This document shows positions 19,534-28,345 of a stretch of 64,000 bases of DNA, piece by piece. Source of the DNA: Bradyrhizobium sp. CB1015 (lineage in GTDB: Bacteria; Pseudomonadota; Alphaproteobacteria; Rhizobiales; Xanthobacteraceae). The stretch lies in contig NZ_CP104174.1 in the NCBI RefSeq assembly GCF_025200925.1, positions 4,836,001 through 4,900,000 of the forward strand, read 5' to 3'. Positions within the stretch are counted from its first letter, which is position 1. The number at the start of each line of letters is the position of its first letter. A program made the translations under genes and the position numbers. The notes under the pieces were generated by a model. It had not been told where the DNA came from. It ran no database searches and was given only the letters and a program-made list of their open reading frames with translations.

Positions 19534-19576
19534 GCGCTCCCCCCACCATGTGCAAGATCCCCGAAGAGGTCACGTC

Positions 19577-20818
19577 ATGAAGCATGTCACGCTGCCGGTT
19601 TCGCCGCAGACCGTCCATTGGGGCTATTTCTCCAAGACAGTCACGCCGGCCCTGACGCTGCGCTCGGGAGACCGGGCCACGATCGAGACGCTGACCCATC
19701 ACGCCAACGACGATTACGAGCGCATGATTCAGGGCGATGCCGGTGCCGAAAGCGTGTTCCAGTGGACACGCGAGCACAAGGCGGTGGCGCGTCGCGGCTC
19801 GGGCCCGACGAAAGGCCCGTTCATCCGCGGCGCGGGCGAGGGGATCGGCGTGCACTTGCTCACCGGCCCCGTCGCGATCGAAGGTGCCGAGCCCGGCGAC
19901 ATTCTGGAGGTGCGCATCCTCGACGTCCGGCCGCGGCCGAGCTGCAGTGCCTGTCATGCCGGCCGCTGCTTCGGCTCCAATGTCGCGGCGAACTGGGGTT
20001 TTCACTATCACGACCTGATCGAGGAGCCGAAGCCGCGCGAGGTCGTCACCATCTTCGAGCTCGACACGTCCGGCGAGCCCTATGCAAAGGCCGTCTACAA
20101 TTACGTCTGGACGCCGCAGACCGATCCTGACGGCATCGTGCACCCGACCATCGACTATCCCGGGGTGCGCGTGGACCATGCCACCATCAGGAAGCGCGAG
20201 AACATCCTTCCCGGCGTGAAGGTGCCGGCGCGGCTGCATTTCGGCACCATGGGCCTTGCGCCCTCGGAAGCCGATTTCGTCAGCTCGATCCCGCCGAGCT
20301 ATACCGGCGGCAATATCGACGATTGGCGCATCGGCAAGGGCGCGCGGATGTTCTATCCGGTCGCGGTCCCCGGCGCCTATTTCTCGGTCGGAGATCCCCA
20401 CGCCGCGCAAGGCGACAGCGAGCTCGGCGGCACCGCAATCGAGACCTCGTTGACCGGCGATTTCGAATTCATCCTGCACAAGAAGGCCGACCTTGGCGGC
20501 ACCAGCCTCGAAGGCCTCGACCATCCCATGCTCGAGACCGATCATGCCTGGTCGTTCTACGGCTTCACCTATCCGAACTATCTTGCCGCGCTCGGCGCCG
20601 ACGCGCAAACCGAGATCGCCAATCACTCTAGTCTCGACCGTGCGATGCGCGATGCATTCAGGAAGCTCCGCCGGTTCCTGATGACGGTGCACGGCCTCAG
20701 CGAGGACGAGGCAATCTCGCTGATGTCGGTCGGCGCCGATTTCGGCGTGACTCAGGTGGTCGATGCCAATTGGGGCGTTCACGGCACGATCAGAAAGAGC
20801 ATGTTCCGATGCGACTGA
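19577..20818 (+). CDS. Acetamidase/formamidase family hydrolase
   Basis: Cytoplasmic amidohydrolase of the FmdA/AmdA family, which cleaves short amides to ammonia and the acid. From the ATG at 19577 it has 413 residues, the usual size; an upstream GTG (19550) is possible but has no better ribosome site (GAAGAGG precedes the ATG). Family blocks are visible: VHWGYFS near the N-terminus, GAGEGIGVHLLTGPVAI, an AHAGRC-like CHAGRCFGSNVAANWGFHYH, and GDPHAAQGDSELGGTAIE, the most conserved block, with His, Asp and Glu likely to hold a metal. It follows the transporter by 43 bases and is paralogous to the C-terminal half of the AraC fusion at 21093. The substrate is unknown. Confidence 0.88.
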   Translation: MKHVTLPVSPQTVHWGYFSKTVTPALTLRSGDRATIETLTHHANDDYERMIQGDAGAESVFQWTREHKAVARRGSGPTKGPFIRGAGEGIGVHLLTGPVAIEGAEPGDILEVRILDVRPRPSCSACHAGRCFGSNVAANWGFHYHDLIEEPKPREVVTIFELDTSGEPYAKAVYNYVWTPQTDPDGIVHPTIDYPGVRVDHATIRKRENILPGVKVPARLHFGTMGLAPSEADFVSSIPPSYTGGNIDDWRIGKGARMFYPVAVPGAYFSVGDPHAAQGDSELGGTAIETSLTGDFEFILHKKADLGGTSLEGLDHPMLETDHAWSFYGFTYPNYLAALGADAQTEIANHSSLDRAMRDAFRKLRRFLMTVHGLSEDEAISLMSVGADFGVTQVVDANWGVHGTIRKSMFRCD

Positions 20819-20939: not shown

Positions 20940-21092
20940 AGGGCTCGCCGTACTCTAATACTTTGAGGAATCTTCCAGTTCCCGGATGAACACTTGACCA
21001 ACGCCCCCCCTTTGCGGCCCGTCGCAGCGACGGATGACCGCGTTCGTCTGGCACAGAGGTTGCTTCGATCGACCGCAATCTGGGTCGATCCG

Positions 21093-23423
21093 ATGAGCTT
21101 CCGGCCGTTCACGAGCGAGTCCTACGCGCAAGACGAGCGCCCCGAAGCCTGGCGGGACGTGCTGGCGGCGGTCGGCTTGCAGCCGGCAGGCAGCCATTCC
21201 TTCTTCGATGGGCACGCTATCGCCTCGCATCGCCAGACCGCCGGTGTTGCGCTGACACGCATGGCCGCGGGCGCGCAGAGCGTCGGTCCGCTCCCGCAGG
21301 CGAATGAAGACCTTCCGATCGCGCTGATGCCGGTCGAGGACGGCATGGTGCTGAAAACCGCCGGCGGACACCGCATCGTTCCCGTCGGTCATCTCGTGCT
21401 GCTGCCGCGCAGCGGGGACTGGAGCATCGTGTTCCAGCGGGACATGCGTGCCATCGTGCTGTCAGTCACCTCCGAGGCGCTGCACGGACGCCTTTCGGGT
21501 AGGCCGCGACTCGGCGAGCCCCGCGTCGTTCCGACCAGCGGCTTTGCCGAGGTGTTCTCGCGCCTGCTGGACGCGACCGCGCGCACCCTCGACACGTTGA
21601 GCGATGCCGAATGGAATTTGCTCGCGCAGTCGCTCGTCGATCTCCTCCTGACGCTGGCGCACCAGCTGGCGGCCTCGAGCCCCGATGCCGGATCGAGCGC
21701 GACGCAGGCTGCGCTGCTGCACCGGATCTGCCAGACCATCGAGCGCCGCCTCGACGATCCCGATCTGGTGCCGGCGCGCGTCGCCCAGGCTGAGGGGATC
21801 TCTGAGCGATACCTGCAAAAGTTGTTCGAAACGGTCGGCGACAATTTCACCCACTATGTTCGCGAGCGACGTCTCCAGCGCGCCTGGGCCGATCTGTCCA
21901 ATCCGACCGAGGCGCATCGCTCGATCTCGGAAATCGCCTACGCCTATGGCTTTGGTGACTCCGCACATTTCAGCCGCGCCTTCCGCCATCGCTTCGGCCT
22001 GCCGCCGCGGGAATTTCGCCAGCAGGAGGCGGAGCGAGCGACTGCACAGCCCGGCGTTGCCGGCCAGCGCGGCTGGCCGCAGGAGGCGCTGGCGCAATTG
22101 CGCGCACATCAGAGCGTGGAGGCCCGCAGCAGCATCGCTTGCGCCGGCGCCGGAGAGCCGACGACCACCGAACGCCGTCATCACCATCTCCCGGTCGAGG
22201 CCAGCCGCGTGCATTGGGGCTATTTCAGCCGCTCGCTGCCGCCGCAGATCGAGATCGCGTCGGGCGACACCATCACCATCGAGACGCTGACCCAGCACGC
22301 CTCCGACGATCCCGAGTTGATGATAACAGGCGATGCCGCCGCCGAAAGCGTATTCGGCTGGACGCGAAACAAGAAGAACGTCGACCGCCGCGGCGCAGGG
22401 CCCATGGATGCCAGCGTATTCGGCCGCGGCGCCGGCGAGGGGTTTGGCGTGCACATCTGCACGGGGCCTGTCGCGGTGAAGGACGCTCAGCCCGGCGATG
22501 TGCTGGAGGTGCGCATTCTCGACATCGTGCCGCGCGCGAGTCGCAATGCGAGCCATGCGGGCCGTGTGTTCGGCTCGTCGGTCGCAGCGTGGTGGGGCTA
22601 TCACTACAACGAGTTTCTCGGCGGTCCCAAGCCGCGCGAAGCCGTCACCATCTATGAGATCTTCGAAGACGCCGAGCTGCCGCACGCCCGCGCGCTCTAC
22701 TCCTATCGCTGGGAGCCGCAGACTGATCCCTTCGGCGTGGTGCACGCCACCTACGACTATCCCGGCGTTCCCGTCGCACCCGGTACGATCAAGCGCCGGC
22801 ACGCGGTGCTCGACGGCATCAAAATTCCCCTGCGTCCGCATTTCGGCGTCATCGCGCTGGCGCCGCGCGAGCTCGATTTCGTCGATTCCGTGCCGCCATC
22901 CTACTTCGGCGGCAATCTCGACAATTGGCGGCTGGGGAAGGGGGCAACAGTGTATCTTCCGGTCTCGGTCCCCGGCGCGCTGCTGTCGGTCGGCGATCCC
23001 CATGCCGCGCAGGGCGACGGCGAGCTCAGCGGCACCGCGATCGAATGCTCGATGACCGGCACCTTCGAGGTGATCCTGCACAAGAAGGCCGATCTTGCCG
23101 GCCGTCCCTTCGCCGATCTGTCTTATCCCCTGATCGAGACTGAGAGCGACTGGGTGCTGACCGGCTTCAGCCACCCCAACTATCTCGCGGAATTCGGCGC
23201 GCAGGGGCAGAGCGAGGTCTACGCAAAATCCTCGCTCGATCTCGCCATGAAGGACGCCTTCCGCAAGATGCGGCGCTTCCTGATGAACGTCAAAGGCCTC
23301 AGCGAGGACGAGGCGATCGCGTTGATGTCGGCGGCGGTCGATTTCGGCGTCACGCAAGTCGTCGACGGCAATTGGGGCGTGCACGCCATCCTCAGCAAGC
23401 GCCTGTTTCAGGACGCATCTTAA
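21093..23423 (+). CDS. AraC-family regulator fused to an acetamidase/formamidase domain
   Basis: One uninterrupted frame joins two proteins normally separate. From the ATG at 21093 (776 aa; a TTG at 20994 would add 33) residues about 1-200 resemble the sensor half of AraC-type regulators (SFRPFTSESYAQDERPEAWR; a cupin-like block around DGMVLKTAGGHRIVPVGHLV). Residues about 212-310 are a double helix-turn-helix with the family end ISEIAYAYGFGDSAHFSRAF and FRHRFGLPPREFR. A 50-residue linker leads to a full-length acetamidase/formamidase domain (about 366-776) with all blocks of the paralogue at 19577, including GDPHAAQGDGELSGTAIE. No start codon with a ribosome site is visible at the junction. 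A DNA-binding enzyme, or an enzyme-derived amide sensor controlling this cluster, are both possible. Confidence 0.88.
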   Translation: MSFRPFTSESYAQDERPEAWRDVLAAVGLQPAGSHSFFDGHAIASHRQTAGVALTRMAAGAQSVGPLPQANEDLPIALMPVEDGMVLKTAGGHRIVPVGHLVLLPRSGDWSIVFQRDMRAIVLSVTSEALHGRLSGRPRLGEPRVVPTSGFAEVFSRLLDATARTLDTLSDAEWNLLAQSLVDLLLTLAHQLAASSPDAGSSATQAALLHRICQTIERRLDDPDLVPARVAQAEGISERYLQKLFETVGDNFTHYVRERRLQRAWADLSNPTEAHRSISEIAYAYGFGDSAHFSRAFRHRFGLPPREFRQQEAERATAQPGVAGQRGWPQEALAQLRAHQSVEARSSIACAGAGEPTTTERRHHHLPVEASRVHWGYFSRSLPPQIEIASGDTITIETLTQHASDDPELMITGDAAAESVFGWTRNKKNVDRRGAGPMDASVFGRGAGEGFGVHICTGPVAVKDAQPGDVLEVRILDIVPRASRNASHAGRVFGSSVAAWWGYHYNEFLGGPKPREAVTIYEIFEDAELPHARALYSYRWEPQTDPFGVVHATYDYPGVPVAPGTIKRRHAVLDGIKIPLRPHFGVIALAPRELDFVDSVPPSYFGGNLDNWRLGKGATVYLPVSVPGALLSVGDPHAAQGDGELSGTAIECSMTGTFEVILHKKADLAGRPFADLSYPLIETESDWVLTGFSHPNYLAEFGAQGQSEVYAKSSLDLAMKDAFRKMRRFLMNVKGLSEDEAIALMSAAVDFGVTQVVDGNWGVHAILSKRLFQDAS

Positions 23424-24202: not shown

Positions 24203-24262
24203 ATGGATCAGCGGAACGTGATCGAGCTTCCCCTTCCAAAAAGCACCAAAATGGTGCTTTAG
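24203..24262 (+). other. Possible 19-codon leader ORF ahead of the PspA fusion gene
   Basis: An ATG at 24203 opens a 19-residue frame (MDQRNVIELPLPKSTKMVL) whose TAG overlaps the GTG that begins the longest form of the downstream gene (24262). It runs through the hairpin at 24240-24260. The ribosome site is weak, so translation is uncertain. If translated, it could couple to or compete with the downstream start. Confidence 0.25.
24240..24260. promoter_or_regulatory. Inverted repeat AAAGCACCA-AAA-TGGTGCTTT upstream of the PspA fusion gene
   Basis: Perfect 9-base arms with a 3-base loop, ending 10 bases before the ATG at 24271 and overlapping the upstream GTG start. GTGCTTT is repeated once more directly after it. 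It could be an operator, or an mRNA hairpin that masks the ribosome site. It stands out because the surrounding sequence has no other dyad of this quality. Confidence 0.5.
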
Positions 24263-24270
24263 TGCTTTCC

Positions 24271-25425
24271 ATGAGCTCATCGCCCCGAAACGCGCCGTCC
24301 GCGCTGCGTTACAGGCTTGCCCCTGACCCGGCCGCCAAGGCCGCCATCGAGGCGACATTCCAGGCCTATGACCGCATGATGGAGATCCTCGACGAGGTGG
24401 CGCGGACTCACAATGTGGGTTCCAACGTGGTCCTGCTCCACGCCCATGCCTACGAGCCGATCCGCAAACAGACCGCGCTGCCCTCGCGGCTGGTGACGCT
24501 GGGCCTGCGCGACCGCACGGAGTACCGCGCCGCCCAGGGGCGCCGCCTGCCGCTCGACGACAAGCTCGCCAAGATCAAGGGGCCCGCCACCATTTCGATT
24601 GCGACCGTGCAAGGACGCTTCAGCGTGCCCTTCGACTACGCCGGCTATGCCGAGGGCTGGGGGCAGAGCGTGCCCGCGCGTCTCATCCGCACCGACGACG
24701 GTTTCGAAGTTCACTACGGCGTGACGCCGAACAGCCTGCCAGAGGAGGAGAACGCCATGGATACCATCGCTGCCGCTCCCGACAATTTCCTGTCCCGGGT
24801 CGGACGCCTGATCGCCGGGATCGCGTACGATGCGATCGAGCAGGCGGAAGGCAAGAACAAGCTGAAGGTGGTCGGCCAAGCCATCCGCGAGATCGAGCGC
24901 GCCGAGACCGAAGCGCGCGATGCGCTCGCCGCTGCGCGGGCCGAGGAATATCGTCTCAACGCGCGCCGCAGCGAGATCGAGCGGGCGATGACCGATCTTA
25001 CCGCCAAGATCGAGACCGCGGTCGCAGACGGGCGCGACGATCTCGCCCGCGCCGGCATCGCGCGGCAAATGGACCTCGAGGCGCAGTTCGAGGTGCTCTC
25101 CCGCGCCATCGACGAGAACAACGAGAAGATCGAGCGATGCGTGACATCGCTGCGCGCGGTGCTGTCGGCGCTGCAGGATGCCGAGCAGCGCCGCGCCGAT
25201 CTCGAAAAGAGCGAGGCACAGGCCAGCCCCCAGGCACCGACGTCGTCGCGGAAATCCGGCGGCACCTCCGCTGCCGCGAAGGCGCTGCGGGCGGGCAGGG
25301 CGGTGGCACGGACCACCGGCGTGCCGCCGGGAATTCCTTATTCGAGCGACATCGACGAGCTGAGCACGCTCCATCGCGACAAGGAAATCGCAGCGAGGCT
25401 GGCCCGGCTGAAGTCGGGCTCCTGA
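24271..25425 (+). CDS. PspA-like coiled-coil protein with an N-terminal TnpB-like module
   Basis: A 384-residue product from the ATG at 24271 (GTG at 24262 possible). Residues about 160-384 are a PspA/IM30-like membrane-stress protein: an amphipathic start (NFLSRVGRLIAGIAYDAIEQ) followed by long alpha-helical coiled coil (IREIERAETEARDALAAARA and onward) and a basic tail. Residues about 10-152 instead resemble the N-terminal wedge region of IS200/IS605 TnpB nucleases: LRYRLAPDPAAKAAIEATFQ, VLLHAHAYEPIRKQTALPSR, then ISIATVQGRFSVPFDYAGYA and ARLIRTDDGFEVHYGV. The RuvC aspartate motif that follows in TnpB is absent. An AGAGGAGGAG site before M163 could also start a 222-residue PspA alone. It begins the yqiJ-yqiK operon. 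Domain calls are by eye. Confidence 0.75.
   Translation: MSSSPRNAPSALRYRLAPDPAAKAAIEATFQAYDRMMEILDEVARTHNVGSNVVLLHAHAYEPIRKQTALPSRLVTLGLRDRTEYRAAQGRRLPLDDKLAKIKGPATISIATVQGRFSVPFDYAGYAEGWGQSVPARLIRTDDGFEVHYGVTPNSLPEEENAMDTIAAAPDNFLSRVGRLIAGIAYDAIEQAEGKNKLKVVGQAIREIERAETEARDALAAARAEEYRLNARRSEIERAMTDLTAKIETAVADGRDDLARAGIARQMDLEAQFEVLSRAIDENNEKIERCVTSLRAVLSALQDAEQRRADLEKSEAQASPQAPTSSRKSGGTSAAAKALRAGRAVARTTGVPPGIPYSSDIDELSTLHRDKEIAARLARLKSGS
24741..24750 (+). promoter_or_regulatory. Strong internal Shine-Dalgarno before codon 163 of the PspA fusion
   Basis: AGAGGAGGAG sits six bases before the ATG at 24757, near-ideal for initiation. A protein started there would have 222 residues and begin MDTIAAAPDNFLSRVGRLIA, matching the usual start and length of PspA. 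The codons also encode PEEEN, so chance cannot be excluded. Confidence 0.55.
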
Positions 25426-25435
25426 GTACCGTGTC

Positions 25436-26095
25436 ATGAGCGCTCTGCTCGAACACGTCATGGCGCCTGAGGTCAGGCCGTTCGCGATCGCGGCGGCCAT
25501 GATCGTCATCGTCGGCTCGGTCGAGGTGATCTCGATGCTGGTCGGGGCCTCCTTGAGCGAGATGCTCGGCACCAACATCGATTTCGCTCATCCCAGCGAC
25601 AACGGCGTGCTCAACGCCATCTCCTGGGTCAATGTCGGCGGCGTGCCGCTCTTGATCTTCCTGCTGCTGTTGCTCGGCGCCTTCTCCATCACCGGGTTCC
25701 TGATCCAGGACCTCGCGCGGATAGTTGCAGGCCCCTTGCCGGCGGCGGTCGCCTCGGTCGCGGCCGTCGCGGTCTCGGTTCCGCTGGTCCGCGCCGCCAG
25801 CCGGGCCATCGCGCGGGTCATTCCCAAGGACGAAAGCTACGTCGTCGGCTTGGGGGATCTCGTCGGCCGCATCGGGGAGGTCGTCGTCGGCCCGCTCGAC
25901 CAGGGGCCGCCCGGCCGCGTCAGCGTGGCCGACGTTCACGGCAACCGCCATTTCGTCTCGGCGGTCGCGGCGCCGTCATCGGGACCTTTGCCGCAGGGAA
26001 CCATGGTCCTCCTGGTCGACCGCGATGGCACCCGTTTCGTCGCGGTGAAGGCCGACGATGAACTCAAGCCGTCCAAGCCCACTCTAAGCAGTTAG
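25436..26095 (+). CDS. yqiJ: YqiJ-family inner-membrane protein
   Basis: The 219-residue product has an N-terminal helix pair, a further membrane segment (VNVGGVPLLIFLLLLLGAFS) and a helix from about residue 95 rich in alanine and valine, followed by a soluble C-terminal OB-fold-like domain (about 135-210; LVGRIGEVVVGPLDQGPPGR, GTMVLLVDRDGTRFVAVK). This matches the YqiJ family, related to NfeD, whose genes pair with flotillins. The gene starts 10 bases after the PspA fusion and 23 bases before the flotillin gene. The expected role is in membrane organisation together with YqiK; the molecular function is not known. Confidence 0.82.
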   Translation: MSALLEHVMAPEVRPFAIAAAMIVIVGSVEVISMLVGASLSEMLGTNIDFAHPSDNGVLNAISWVNVGGVPLLIFLLLLLGAFSITGFLIQDLARIVAGPLPAAVASVAAVAVSVPLVRAASRAIARVIPKDESYVVGLGDLVGRIGEVVVGPLDQGPPGRVSVADVHGNRHFVSAVAAPSSGPLPQGTMVLLVDRDGTRFVAVKADDELKPSKPTLSS

Positions 26096-26118: not shown

Positions 26119-27813
26119 ATGTTCGACATTGCAGTCCCGGCCGTGATCGGCGTCGCGCTGATCGTCGTCCTGGGGATCGTCTTCACCATTCTCTACAAGC
26201 GCGCCACCCGCGACGAGGCCTTCGTGCGCACCGGGCTTGGCGGCAAGAAGGTCGTGCTCGACGGCGGCGCCATGATCCTGCCGATCTTCCACTCCTACGC
26301 CAGCGTCAATCTGAAGACGCTGCGGCTCACCGTCGAGCGCAAGGAGCGGGAATCCCTCATCACCAAGGACCGCCTGCGCGTCGACATCGTTGCCGAGTTC
26401 TACGTCCGCGTCCGTCCCGACGAGGAGAGCATCGCGCTCGCGAGCCAGACGCTCGGCGCATTGACCAACGACGCCGAGGCGCTGCGCAACCAGGTCGAGG
26501 CGAAATTCGTCGACGGCCTGCGCTCGGTCGCAGCGACCATGACCATCCTGGAACTCCAGGAGAAGCGCTCGGATTTCGTCAAGCATGTGCAGTCCACGGT
26601 CGAGTCCGACGTCAAGTCGAACGGTCTCGAGCTGGAATCGGTGTCGCTGACCAAGCTCGACCAGACCGACGTCAAGTTCTTCAACCCAGAGAACTTCTTC
26701 GACGCCGAAGGCCTCACGCAGCTGAAGACCATCACCGAGACCCGTCGGCGCGACCGCAATGCCATCGTGCGCGACAACGAGGTGGCGATCGCGCAGAAGG
26801 ACCTCGAGGCGCGGCAGCAGACCCTGACCATCGAACGCACCAAGAAAGAGGCGGAGCTGTCGCAGGAGCGCGACATCGCAAACAAGACGGCGAGCACCCG
26901 CGCCGAGGTCGCAACCGCGACGCAGACAGCGCGCCTGACCGAGGAGAATGCCCGCATCGACACCGACAGGGCGGTTGCCGAGAAGGAGGCCGGCGCAAAG
27001 CAGGTCAAGGAAACCGCGGTGATCGAGTCGGATCTCGCGATCAACAAGCGCAAGACCGACGCCCAGCGCGAGATCCAGATCGCGACGCAGGAAAACGAGA
27101 TCCAGATCGCGGCGAAGAGCAAGCAGACCTCGGAGGCCGTCGCCGAGGCCAAGGCCGCCGAAGCGCTCGCCGTCTCGGCCGAAGAAAAGGTCGTGACTGC
27201 ACGCGCGGTCGAGGTCGCCGATCGCGCCCGTCTCACCCAGGTGCTCGCCGCACGGACCGAGGCCGAGCGCAAGTCGACCGAGCTGATCGTCGCGGCCGAA
27301 GCCGAGAAGAAAGCCTCGCTCGACCGTGCCGAGGCCGTCAAGACGCTGGCGACGGCGGAAGCCGAATCCAACAAGATCAAGGCGGTCGGCGTGCGCAACA
27401 TCGGCGAGGCGGAAGCTGCCGTCATCACCATGAAGAACGAGGCGCAGAACAAGCTCGGCAGCAACGTGATCGATTTCGAGATCGCCAAGAAGCGGATCGA
27501 GATCATGCCGTCGGCGCTGGCCGAAATGGTGAAGCCGATCGCGAACCTCAAGGACGTCCGCATCCTGCACACCGGCGGCGCGTTCGGCGGCAACGGCGCC
27601 GGCGCAGGCAATGTCGGCTTCGGTGAAGGCCTGGCCGGCGAGCTGCTCAAGGTGCATGCGCTGCGCCCGATGATCGACGAGATCCTGCGCCAGAGCGGTT
27701 TTGCGCCGGGCGACGATCCGGTGAAAGCGCTGGTCGGCGCCGTGACGGGAAAGAGCAACGGCGCGGCCGTGCCGGCGCCGGTGCCGGAGAAAACAAGCCC
27801 CGCCGAACTATGA
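26119..27813 (+). CDS. yqiK: Flotillin-like protein YqiK
   Basis: SPFH/band-7 flotillin of 564 residues. An N-terminal membrane anchor (VPAVIGVALIVVLGIVFTIL) is followed by the SPFH domain (about residues 45-220; GGAMILPIFHSYASVNLKTL, KDRLRVDIVAEFYVRVRPDE) and a very long alanine-, glutamate- and lysine-rich coiled coil (about 220-480). A glycine-rich stretch (GGAFGGNGAGAGN) precedes the C-terminus. In bacteria such proteins form membrane microdomain scaffolds. The gene is preceded by yqiJ as in E. coli, and here the unit also contains a PspA protein. Its stop overlaps the next small gene by four bases. Confidence 0.9.
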   Translation: MFDIAVPAVIGVALIVVLGIVFTILYKRATRDEAFVRTGLGGKKVVLDGGAMILPIFHSYASVNLKTLRLTVERKERESLITKDRLRVDIVAEFYVRVRPDEESIALASQTLGALTNDAEALRNQVEAKFVDGLRSVAATMTILELQEKRSDFVKHVQSTVESDVKSNGLELESVSLTKLDQTDVKFFNPENFFDAEGLTQLKTITETRRRDRNAIVRDNEVAIAQKDLEARQQTLTIERTKKEAELSQERDIANKTASTRAEVATATQTARLTEENARIDTDRAVAEKEAGAKQVKETAVIESDLAINKRKTDAQREIQIATQENEIQIAAKSKQTSEAVAEAKAAEALAVSAEEKVVTARAVEVADRARLTQVLAARTEAERKSTELIVAAEAEKKASLDRAEAVKTLATAEAESNKIKAVGVRNIGEAEAAVITMKNEAQNKLGSNVIDFEIAKKRIEIMPSALAEMVKPIANLKDVRILHTGGAFGGNGAGAGNVGFGEGLAGELLKVHALRPMIDEILRQSGFAPGDDPVKALVGAVTGKSNGAAVPAPVPEKTSPAEL

Positions 27814-28270: not shown

Positions 28271-28345
28271 TCCTCGGTAGCTCAGCGGTAGAGCATCCGA
28301 CTGTTAATCGGATGGTCGCTGGTTCGAATCCAGCCCGGGGAGCCA
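28271..28345 (+). tRNA. tRNA-Asn (anticodon GTT), CCA encoded
   Basis: The acceptor TCCTCGG pairs with CCGGGGA (28335-28341, one G-T pair), followed by discriminator G and CCA. The anticodon stem CCGAC/ATCGG-type arm encloses CTGTTAA, giving anticodon GTT. D-loop GCTCAGCGGTAGAGC and T-arm CTGG-TTCGAAT-CCAG are standard. Confidence 0.97.

Follow-up and report, generated by a model that had tools for sequence, protein, structure and literature searches.

A probable guide-free DNA-binding domain derived from TnpB and joined to PspA in a membrane-stress operon of Bradyrhizobium

Introduction

PspA is an ESCRT-III-like membrane-stress protein. In Escherichia coli, it links membrane stress to the transcription of its own operon (PMC2763126), with the regulator PspF being a separate protein that carries a helix-turn-helix of the Fis type (PMC11237479), and in Bacillus subtilis recruitment of PspA to the membrane depends on the SPFH protein YdjI (PMC8581546). 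Operons hosting PspA beside YqiJ and a flotillin are already known as well, with a CesT/Tir partner domain located upstream of PspA or joined to it (PMC11237479). The main text of that paper lists tandem PspA, NlpC/P60, and PspAA as PspA fusions and contains no word starting with “orfb” or “transpos”.

In the TnpB nuclease of ISDra2, the residues K76, F77, and Q80 contact the TAM (PMC10097598). Nuclease-dead TnpBs acting as RNA-guided repressors (TldR) are likewise known, combining an inactivated RuvC with a guide RNA (PMC13418256). In the sources considered here, the known new uses of TnpB, namely Cas12 and TldR, keep the RuvC-side lobe together with the RNA guide. Within the open-licence literature, our searches revealed neither a fusion of a TnpB lobe to PspA nor a guide-free use of such a lobe, in line with an earlier sequence-only reading of the locus reported here, which had known of none.

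This locus of Bradyrhizobium sp. CB1015 (RefSeq assembly GCF_025200925.1, contig NZ_CP104174.1) lies in a window, i.e., the whole stretch of DNA analyzed, of 64,000 nucleotides (contig positions 4,836,001 to 4,900,000), to which all coordinates refer. It resembles TldR in hosting a TnpB derivative that, as we propose, serves host transcription control, and E. coli Psp in the proposed coupling of PspA to the transcription of its own operon. It differs from TldR in that RuvC is absent and the putative site is a fixed palindrome, and from E. coli in that the DNA-binding part would share one chain with PspA and act near a sigma-70-like promoter. With the CesT/Tir operons it has PspA next to YqiJ and flotillin in common, whereas its partner domain, joined to PspA, is a TnpB lobe. 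Two features described below, an internal start at the junction and an upstream dyad, are new beyond the sequence-only reading.

Results and Discussion

The fusion gene and its operon

The fusion ORF starts with ATG at 24271 and its stop codon ends at 25425 on the forward strand, encoding 384 aa; a GTG at 24262 is located in-frame upstream of this ATG. It is composed of an N-terminal module (residues 1-162, 24271..24756, +) and a PspA/IM30 part (residues 163-384, 24757..25425, +) that has a start codon of its own (ATG 24757-24759). Residues 174-337 match PspA_IM30 (2e-11, 44.4 bits), exceeding the curated cut-off of 33.9, and the C-terminal part shows the coiled-coil hairpin fold of PspA. With 36.1 bits versus a cut-off of 242.95, the fusion protein does not reach the NCBIfam equivalog phageshock_pspA (TIGR02977); its C-terminal part is a member of the PspA family and not an E. 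coli-type equivalog. Another PspA-family match in the same genome (8.41-Mb chromosome), a 240-aa frame (G000:C1:1829846), lies away from the fusion. Downstream, Pfam assigns a YqiJ-type membrane protein (25436..26095, +; PF21001 8.5e-19, PF07290 2.8e-10) and a flotillin/YqiK (SPFH) protein (26119..27813, +; PF15975 4.4e-30, PF01145 1.2e-15), so that the gene heads a YqiJ-flotillin operon, as had been proposed. A tRNA gene (28271-28342, +; Rfam tRNA, 3.7e-15) follows shortly 3' of the flotillin gene.

Descent of the N-terminal module from TnpB

The N-terminal module scored above the cut-off of no family in Pfam, NCBIfam, or PHROGs, a PDB sequence search yielded no TnpB, and Foldseek returned no match at E <= 0.001. 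HTH_OrfB_IS605 stayed below threshold and appears in four of 16 relatives. When the entire fusion protein served as query of a structure search, its coiled coil occupied the list, leaving TnpB at row 50 only. A likeness to N-formylglutamate amidohydrolase was dismissed as being below cut-off (0.069) and present in just two of 16 members. A profile of 17 modules (HMM, hhalign) was compared with a target set of 102 ORFs of at least 150 aa, originating from 30 loci fetched by a TnpB family model. From these, it picked out a single TnpB of Mariprofundus ferrinatatus (L132; 30.8 bits, E 1.2e-9; runner-up 0.91), which belongs to an IS605 element with an adjoining TnpA gene. An alignment of this TnpB type, built from the 109 proteins of 360-400 aa among 120 relatives listed, was split into a wedge and a RuvC half. 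Using hhalign, the module matched the wedge half with a probability of 97.4% (E 1.4e-11, 141 columns, 27% identity) and did not match the RuvC half (0.2%); the best of 100 column-shuffled wedge alignments reached 3.4%, the reversed alignment 0.3%, and the L132 TnpB taken alone 93.3%.

Structure comparison against the PDB points in the same direction, with rows 1-47 of 50 showing a WED barrel with an inserted REC. In the predicted model, the REC helices (residues 20-87) are inserted after WED strand 1 (residues 10-16) and precede the WED barrel (residues 92-151), as in TnpB. The match thereby covers both WED, as first strand and barrel, and REC, as inserted helices, and it ends where RuvC would start. 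The RuvC nuclease domain with its D-E-D site and the zinc finger are absent from the fusion, the chain running on as PspA instead. We identify the N-terminal ~160 residues as a WED+REC lobe that was retained when a TnpB nuclease lost its RuvC/zinc-finger lobe. The module has the fold of TnpB (ISDra2, M. ferrinatatus) and is colinear with it over 141 columns. The sequence-only reading had seen a wedge-like N-terminus whose likeness to TnpB stops at the start of RuvC, and it is borne out on both points: profile comparison and predicted structure each lead to TnpB and neither to an unrelated PspA-associated domain.

Unlike TnpB, the module lacks the RuvC/zinc-finger lobe, resides in a host operon, either fused to PspA or alone, with no TnpA seen therein, and is near-neutral. 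Its net charge ranges from -7 to +5 within the 17 modules (-3 to +6 in a looser set of 61), as compared with a mean of +11 (6 to 20) for the 109 TnpB wedge halves, which speaks against DNA binding. This is one of two arguments for a different explanation, according to which the lobe has lost nucleic-acid binding and serves PspA as a module for protein interaction or assembly, the upstream dyad being the site of an unrelated, unlinked regulator. The other is the existence elsewhere of CesT/Tir-PspA dyads with flotillin and YqiJ genes (PMC11237479). We regard this explanation as unlikely for two reasons given below: the DNA dyad accompanies the module even where PspA is missing, and it covaries with residue 73, which an unrelated regulator does not predict.

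Distribution of the fusion and its variants

A search for relatives gave 227 proteins at E <= 0.001; among the 120 listed, the fused proteins are, where a name is given, mostly called “PspA/IM30 family protein” or “phage shock protein A” and in some cases “hypothetical protein”. The fusion is present in 21 of 60 related genomes, and a survey of GTDB representatives confirmed 190 fusion loci, the best 80 of which were retained. It reaches other families and orders of Alphaproteobacteria beyond Bradyrhizobium. Within the genus, 20 of 36 genomes (own genome included) have a module match, and at least one of the remainder (G033) has a truncated copy, rendering the distribution patchy. At broader taxonomic scale, module matches were detected in 9 of 299 genomes on phylum level (E <= 0.01, one weak match dropped), in 7 of 385 on class level (one dropped), and in 25 of 397 on order level; around chosen relatives, the numbers were 4 of 5, 4 of 17, and 8 of 76. 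One of the order-level matches (G1026/L233), spanning 39 columns in a 75-aa frame, was left out of the counts. The same holds for G185/L109 (E 0.0055, internal stop) and G075/L148 (chemoreceptor-like by eye), both taken as chance. The copy in G033 (L196) is the same fusion cut by the contig end and was placed outside the fusion counts and inside the 39 “others” among the related genomes.

YqiJ and YqiK genes accompany the fusion in the same orientation in all 84 loci tested (the best 80 of the 190 GTDB loci and L204-L207), and with these two as neighbors no TnpA gene was seen in the fusion operon. Distant lineages, with identities of 30-100% and invariant residues, likewise keep the frame open, and since the fusion recurs in many assemblies, an assembly or gene-call artefact was dismissed. 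The gene is found in many genomes rather than in one strain. It is intact and very probably not transposon debris, in accordance with the sequence-only reading, and the conservation of fusion and yqiJ-yqiK context, for which that reading had suggested a check, is borne out, for the context in each of the loci tested.

In 140 of the 141 loci analyzed, PspA continues from the module. The sole exception (L237 in G1049) consists of the module alone and ends just before YqiJ. A search for its short relatives gave 61 proteins (P0242-P0302) of 91-273 aa with no listed Pfam domains, two of them from Dongia and all that have a name being called “hypothetical protein”; as the search admits 0.55-1.75 times the query length, which places fused proteins outside it, some of the 61 may be fragments. 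The four relatives inspected (P0242, P0257, P0268, and P0282) have similar C-termini and no PspA.

Several related loci deviate in composition. A record titled Frankia sp. RB7 (JAUEPE010000003.1) contains a fusion 93% identical to that of Bradyrhizobium; it may be mislabelled, mixed, or the result of recent transfer. Two genomes (L195 in G003 and L183 in G020) host another type of YqiJ-flotillin pair adjoined by an NRAMP/MntH-like gene (by eye) and not by PspA. In G059 (L179), the PspA-YqiJ-flotillin operon lacks the TnpB lobe, and its plain PspA is preceded by an ORF that is ribbon-helix-helix-like by eye and without a match in Pfam.

A dyad in front of the module

Ten bases 5' of the long-form ATG lies the dyad AAAGCAC-CAAAATG-GTGCTTT (24240..24260, +), a putative operator. 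The pattern AAGCAC-N4..9-GTGCTTTA has a single match in the whole genome, which is the dyad before the fusion. Among the 60 related genomes, it is present in 21 of 21 bearing the module, always just before it, and in one of the 39 others; it is missing in all four YqiJ genomes of this set without a module match, i.e., the truncated fusion copy (G033), the plain PspA operon (G059), and the two YqiJ-flotillin pairs (G003, G020). A dyad of 7-7-7 architecture scoring at least 13 of 16 was detected upstream in 141 of 141 loci, compared with one of 2,820 shuffled upstream regions and five of 5,000 random window stretches, the latter all having a score of 15, as would be expected if they overlap the true site. 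A dyad also precedes the module of L237, which stands alone. Because of this locus, and because the pattern is missing in G059, G003, and G020, the dyad is tied to the module and not to PspA.

Counting from 8 bases after the dyad, the first ATG or GTG follows it at a distance of 9-12 bases in 137 of 141 loci, with L147 and L245 as clear exceptions. L147 has an imperfect dyad at a large distance from the start. In L245 (G1077), it is found 2 bases 5' of the start codon with an extra GGTGCTTT half-site before it, the operator there being perhaps shifted or doubled. A promoter scan of two loci (L223, L242) placed the dyad in the spacer of TTGAAA-17-TATAGT, with ~7 bases from the latter hexamer to the ATG, so that the mRNA of the long form may be leaderless. 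In the window, the scan yielded no consensus promoter at the fusion gene's own dyad; by position, L223 and L242 suggest a weak -10-like TTTAGT (24258..24263, +), 7 bases 5' of the ATG. The putative operator is located in the gene's own promoter region and tied to the gene. The deviating dyads of L147 and L245 and the missing consensus promoter in the window count against our overall reading.

MerR-type activators bind between two promoter hexamers. The arrangement in L223 and L242 could accordingly be taken to mean that the module binds the dyad and activates the promoter instead of repressing it. We consider this quite improbable, as the hexamer spacing in the two loci scanned is an ordinary 17, for which no remodelling seems to be needed, and as a dyad beside the start codon, as in L245, suits repression.

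Covariation of residue 73 with the dyad

The REC helix residues S72-R73-L74-V75-T76 (24484..24498, +; R73 codon 24487-24489) were aligned to K76-F77-A78-L79-Q80 of ISDra2, the step from L132-type TnpB to ISDra2 being made by eye and ungapped. Within the ISDra2 stretch VDKFALQN, this pairs S72 with K76, R73 with F77, and T76 with Q80, placing residue 73 within the TAM-reading helix of TnpB. Its counterpart in L132-type TnpB is a Gln (in 83 of 120 listed, 37 lying outside the pattern used), and the L237-type stand-alone modules have Arg73 in 54 of 61 cases (the other seven again outside the pattern used).

With the half-site written as AAA-N-X-A-Y, X denotes its fifth base. In the 125 loci with Arg73, both halves have C at X (111) or one has C and the other T (14), the latter counting against a strict residue rule; in the 16 loci with Gln73, X is G/G (10), T/T (5), or G/T (1). 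Since a gene can appear more than once among these 141 loci, under different locus ids, they were reduced to 36 lineages of <90% identity (24 Arg73, 12 Gln73), in which residue 73 separates C dyads from G/T dyads without error. No other column does so among the 327 variable ones (366 whole-protein columns tested), the next best making one error. On a tree built without residue 73, three changes were found, at least two of them on well supported branches, with residue and dyad being concordant each time; the switch pairs are too few for a sign test to become significant. Grouping all Gln73 lineages in one clade is rejected (p-AU 2.9e-49), L221 (Gln73/GGAC) nesting among Arg73 lineages, and the placement next to the Gln73 group of L237 and L245, both Arg73/GCAC, is less firm (p-AU 0.059). 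Overall, there are two to three independent switches of residue and dyad, only two of them firm, and residue 73 covaries with the putative operator as a specificity residue would. The earlier proposal that the module binds nucleic acid gains from this covariation and loses from the net charge near 0 versus about +11 in TnpB.

A residue changing in step with a dyad in the promoter region suggests a gene switch that works without an RNA guide. The descent from TnpB and the precedent of nuclease-dead TnpBs as RNA-guided repressors (PMC13418256) would also be compatible with a TldR-like repressor, in which the module has kept its binding of a guide or scaffold RNA. However, RuvC, which in ISDra2 holds the guide RNA jointly with WED (PMC10097598), is absent here, and Rfam, covering described RNAs at E up to 1, gave solely the above tRNA gene near the operon. 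A fixed palindrome and a residue code moreover suit reading by protein, leaving an RNA-guided mode very improbable.

An internal start at the junction

A Shine-Dalgarno-like AGGAGG (24743..24748, +) precedes the internal ATG by 8 bases. The corresponding Met163 is the residue after the linker, and a Met is found near the junction in 140 of 140 fused loci; before it, the Shine-Dalgarno match comprises at least five bases in 135, four in two, and three in three of them. Counting distinct junctions, 37 of 42 have a match of at least five bases, versus 104 of 2,315 control in-frame ATG/GTG/TTG codons of the same genes; this comparison somewhat favors the junctions, for which the best Met within the 24 residues before PspA was taken, the controls comprising every codon. 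A smaller count (27 of 27 versus 15 of 468) is superseded by this fuller set, which includes five weak junctions. The residues at the junction vary (EEENAM, PEEKTM, QKEQTM, EGEHTM), the start signal being kept. The combination of Shine-Dalgarno and start codon suggests that a free PspA of 222 aa is probably also made from the same mRNA.

An in-frame junction with a full start signal could also have arisen from accidental joining of two genes, the upstream part being a functionless, decaying transposon remnant. We attach hardly any credence to this, given the frame that is open with invariant residues across distant lineages, the retention of operon and dyad, and the occurrence of the module alone.

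Proposed mechanism and its implications

In summary of these lines of evidence, we favor, as rather probable, the reading of a guide-free DNA-binding domain derived from TnpB that would autoregulate a membrane-stress operon. We infer the following course for DNA binding, dimerization, repression as opposed to activation, release under stress, and the short product. The WED+REC lobe would bind AAAGCAC-N7-GTGCTTT of its own operon, probably as a dimer, in which REC residue 73 would read base 5 of both half-sites, and the long protein would thereby repress its own promoter. On a stressed membrane, the PspA part would assemble with YqiJ and the flotillin YqiK and pull the DNA-binding part off, the withdrawal of which would turn the operon on, and the internal start would supply free PspA as effector. 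By analogy to YdjI of B. subtilis, it is plausible that the long form leaves the DNA in a flotillin-dependent manner.

In a wider sense, the chances appear about even that the TAM-reading WED+REC lobe, devoid of nuclease and guide RNA, constitutes a new class of transcription factors reading a fixed palindrome by protein only, with residue 73 determining the base, alone or fused to PspA. It would then form a direct stress switch between DNA and membrane, with one mRNA giving rise to a DNA-bound sensor and, through the internal start, a free effector. If so, the DNA-reading lobe alone could turn into a conventional sequence-specific regulator, bearing on the evolution and reuse of TAM and PAM reading. 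It would follow a simple residue-to-base rule (Arg73 for C, Gln73 for G or T), and envelope stress research would gain a PspA system with a built-in DNA-binding part.

An additional observation concerns a second unusual gene of the window. The 809-aa ORF at 20994-23423 (+) joins an AraC-type regulator (AraC_binding_2, HTH_18) to an acetamidase/formamidase (FmdA_AmdA), being by its domain content an enzyme-regulator fusion, and a separate acetamidase/formamidase gene is located beside it (19550-20818, +).
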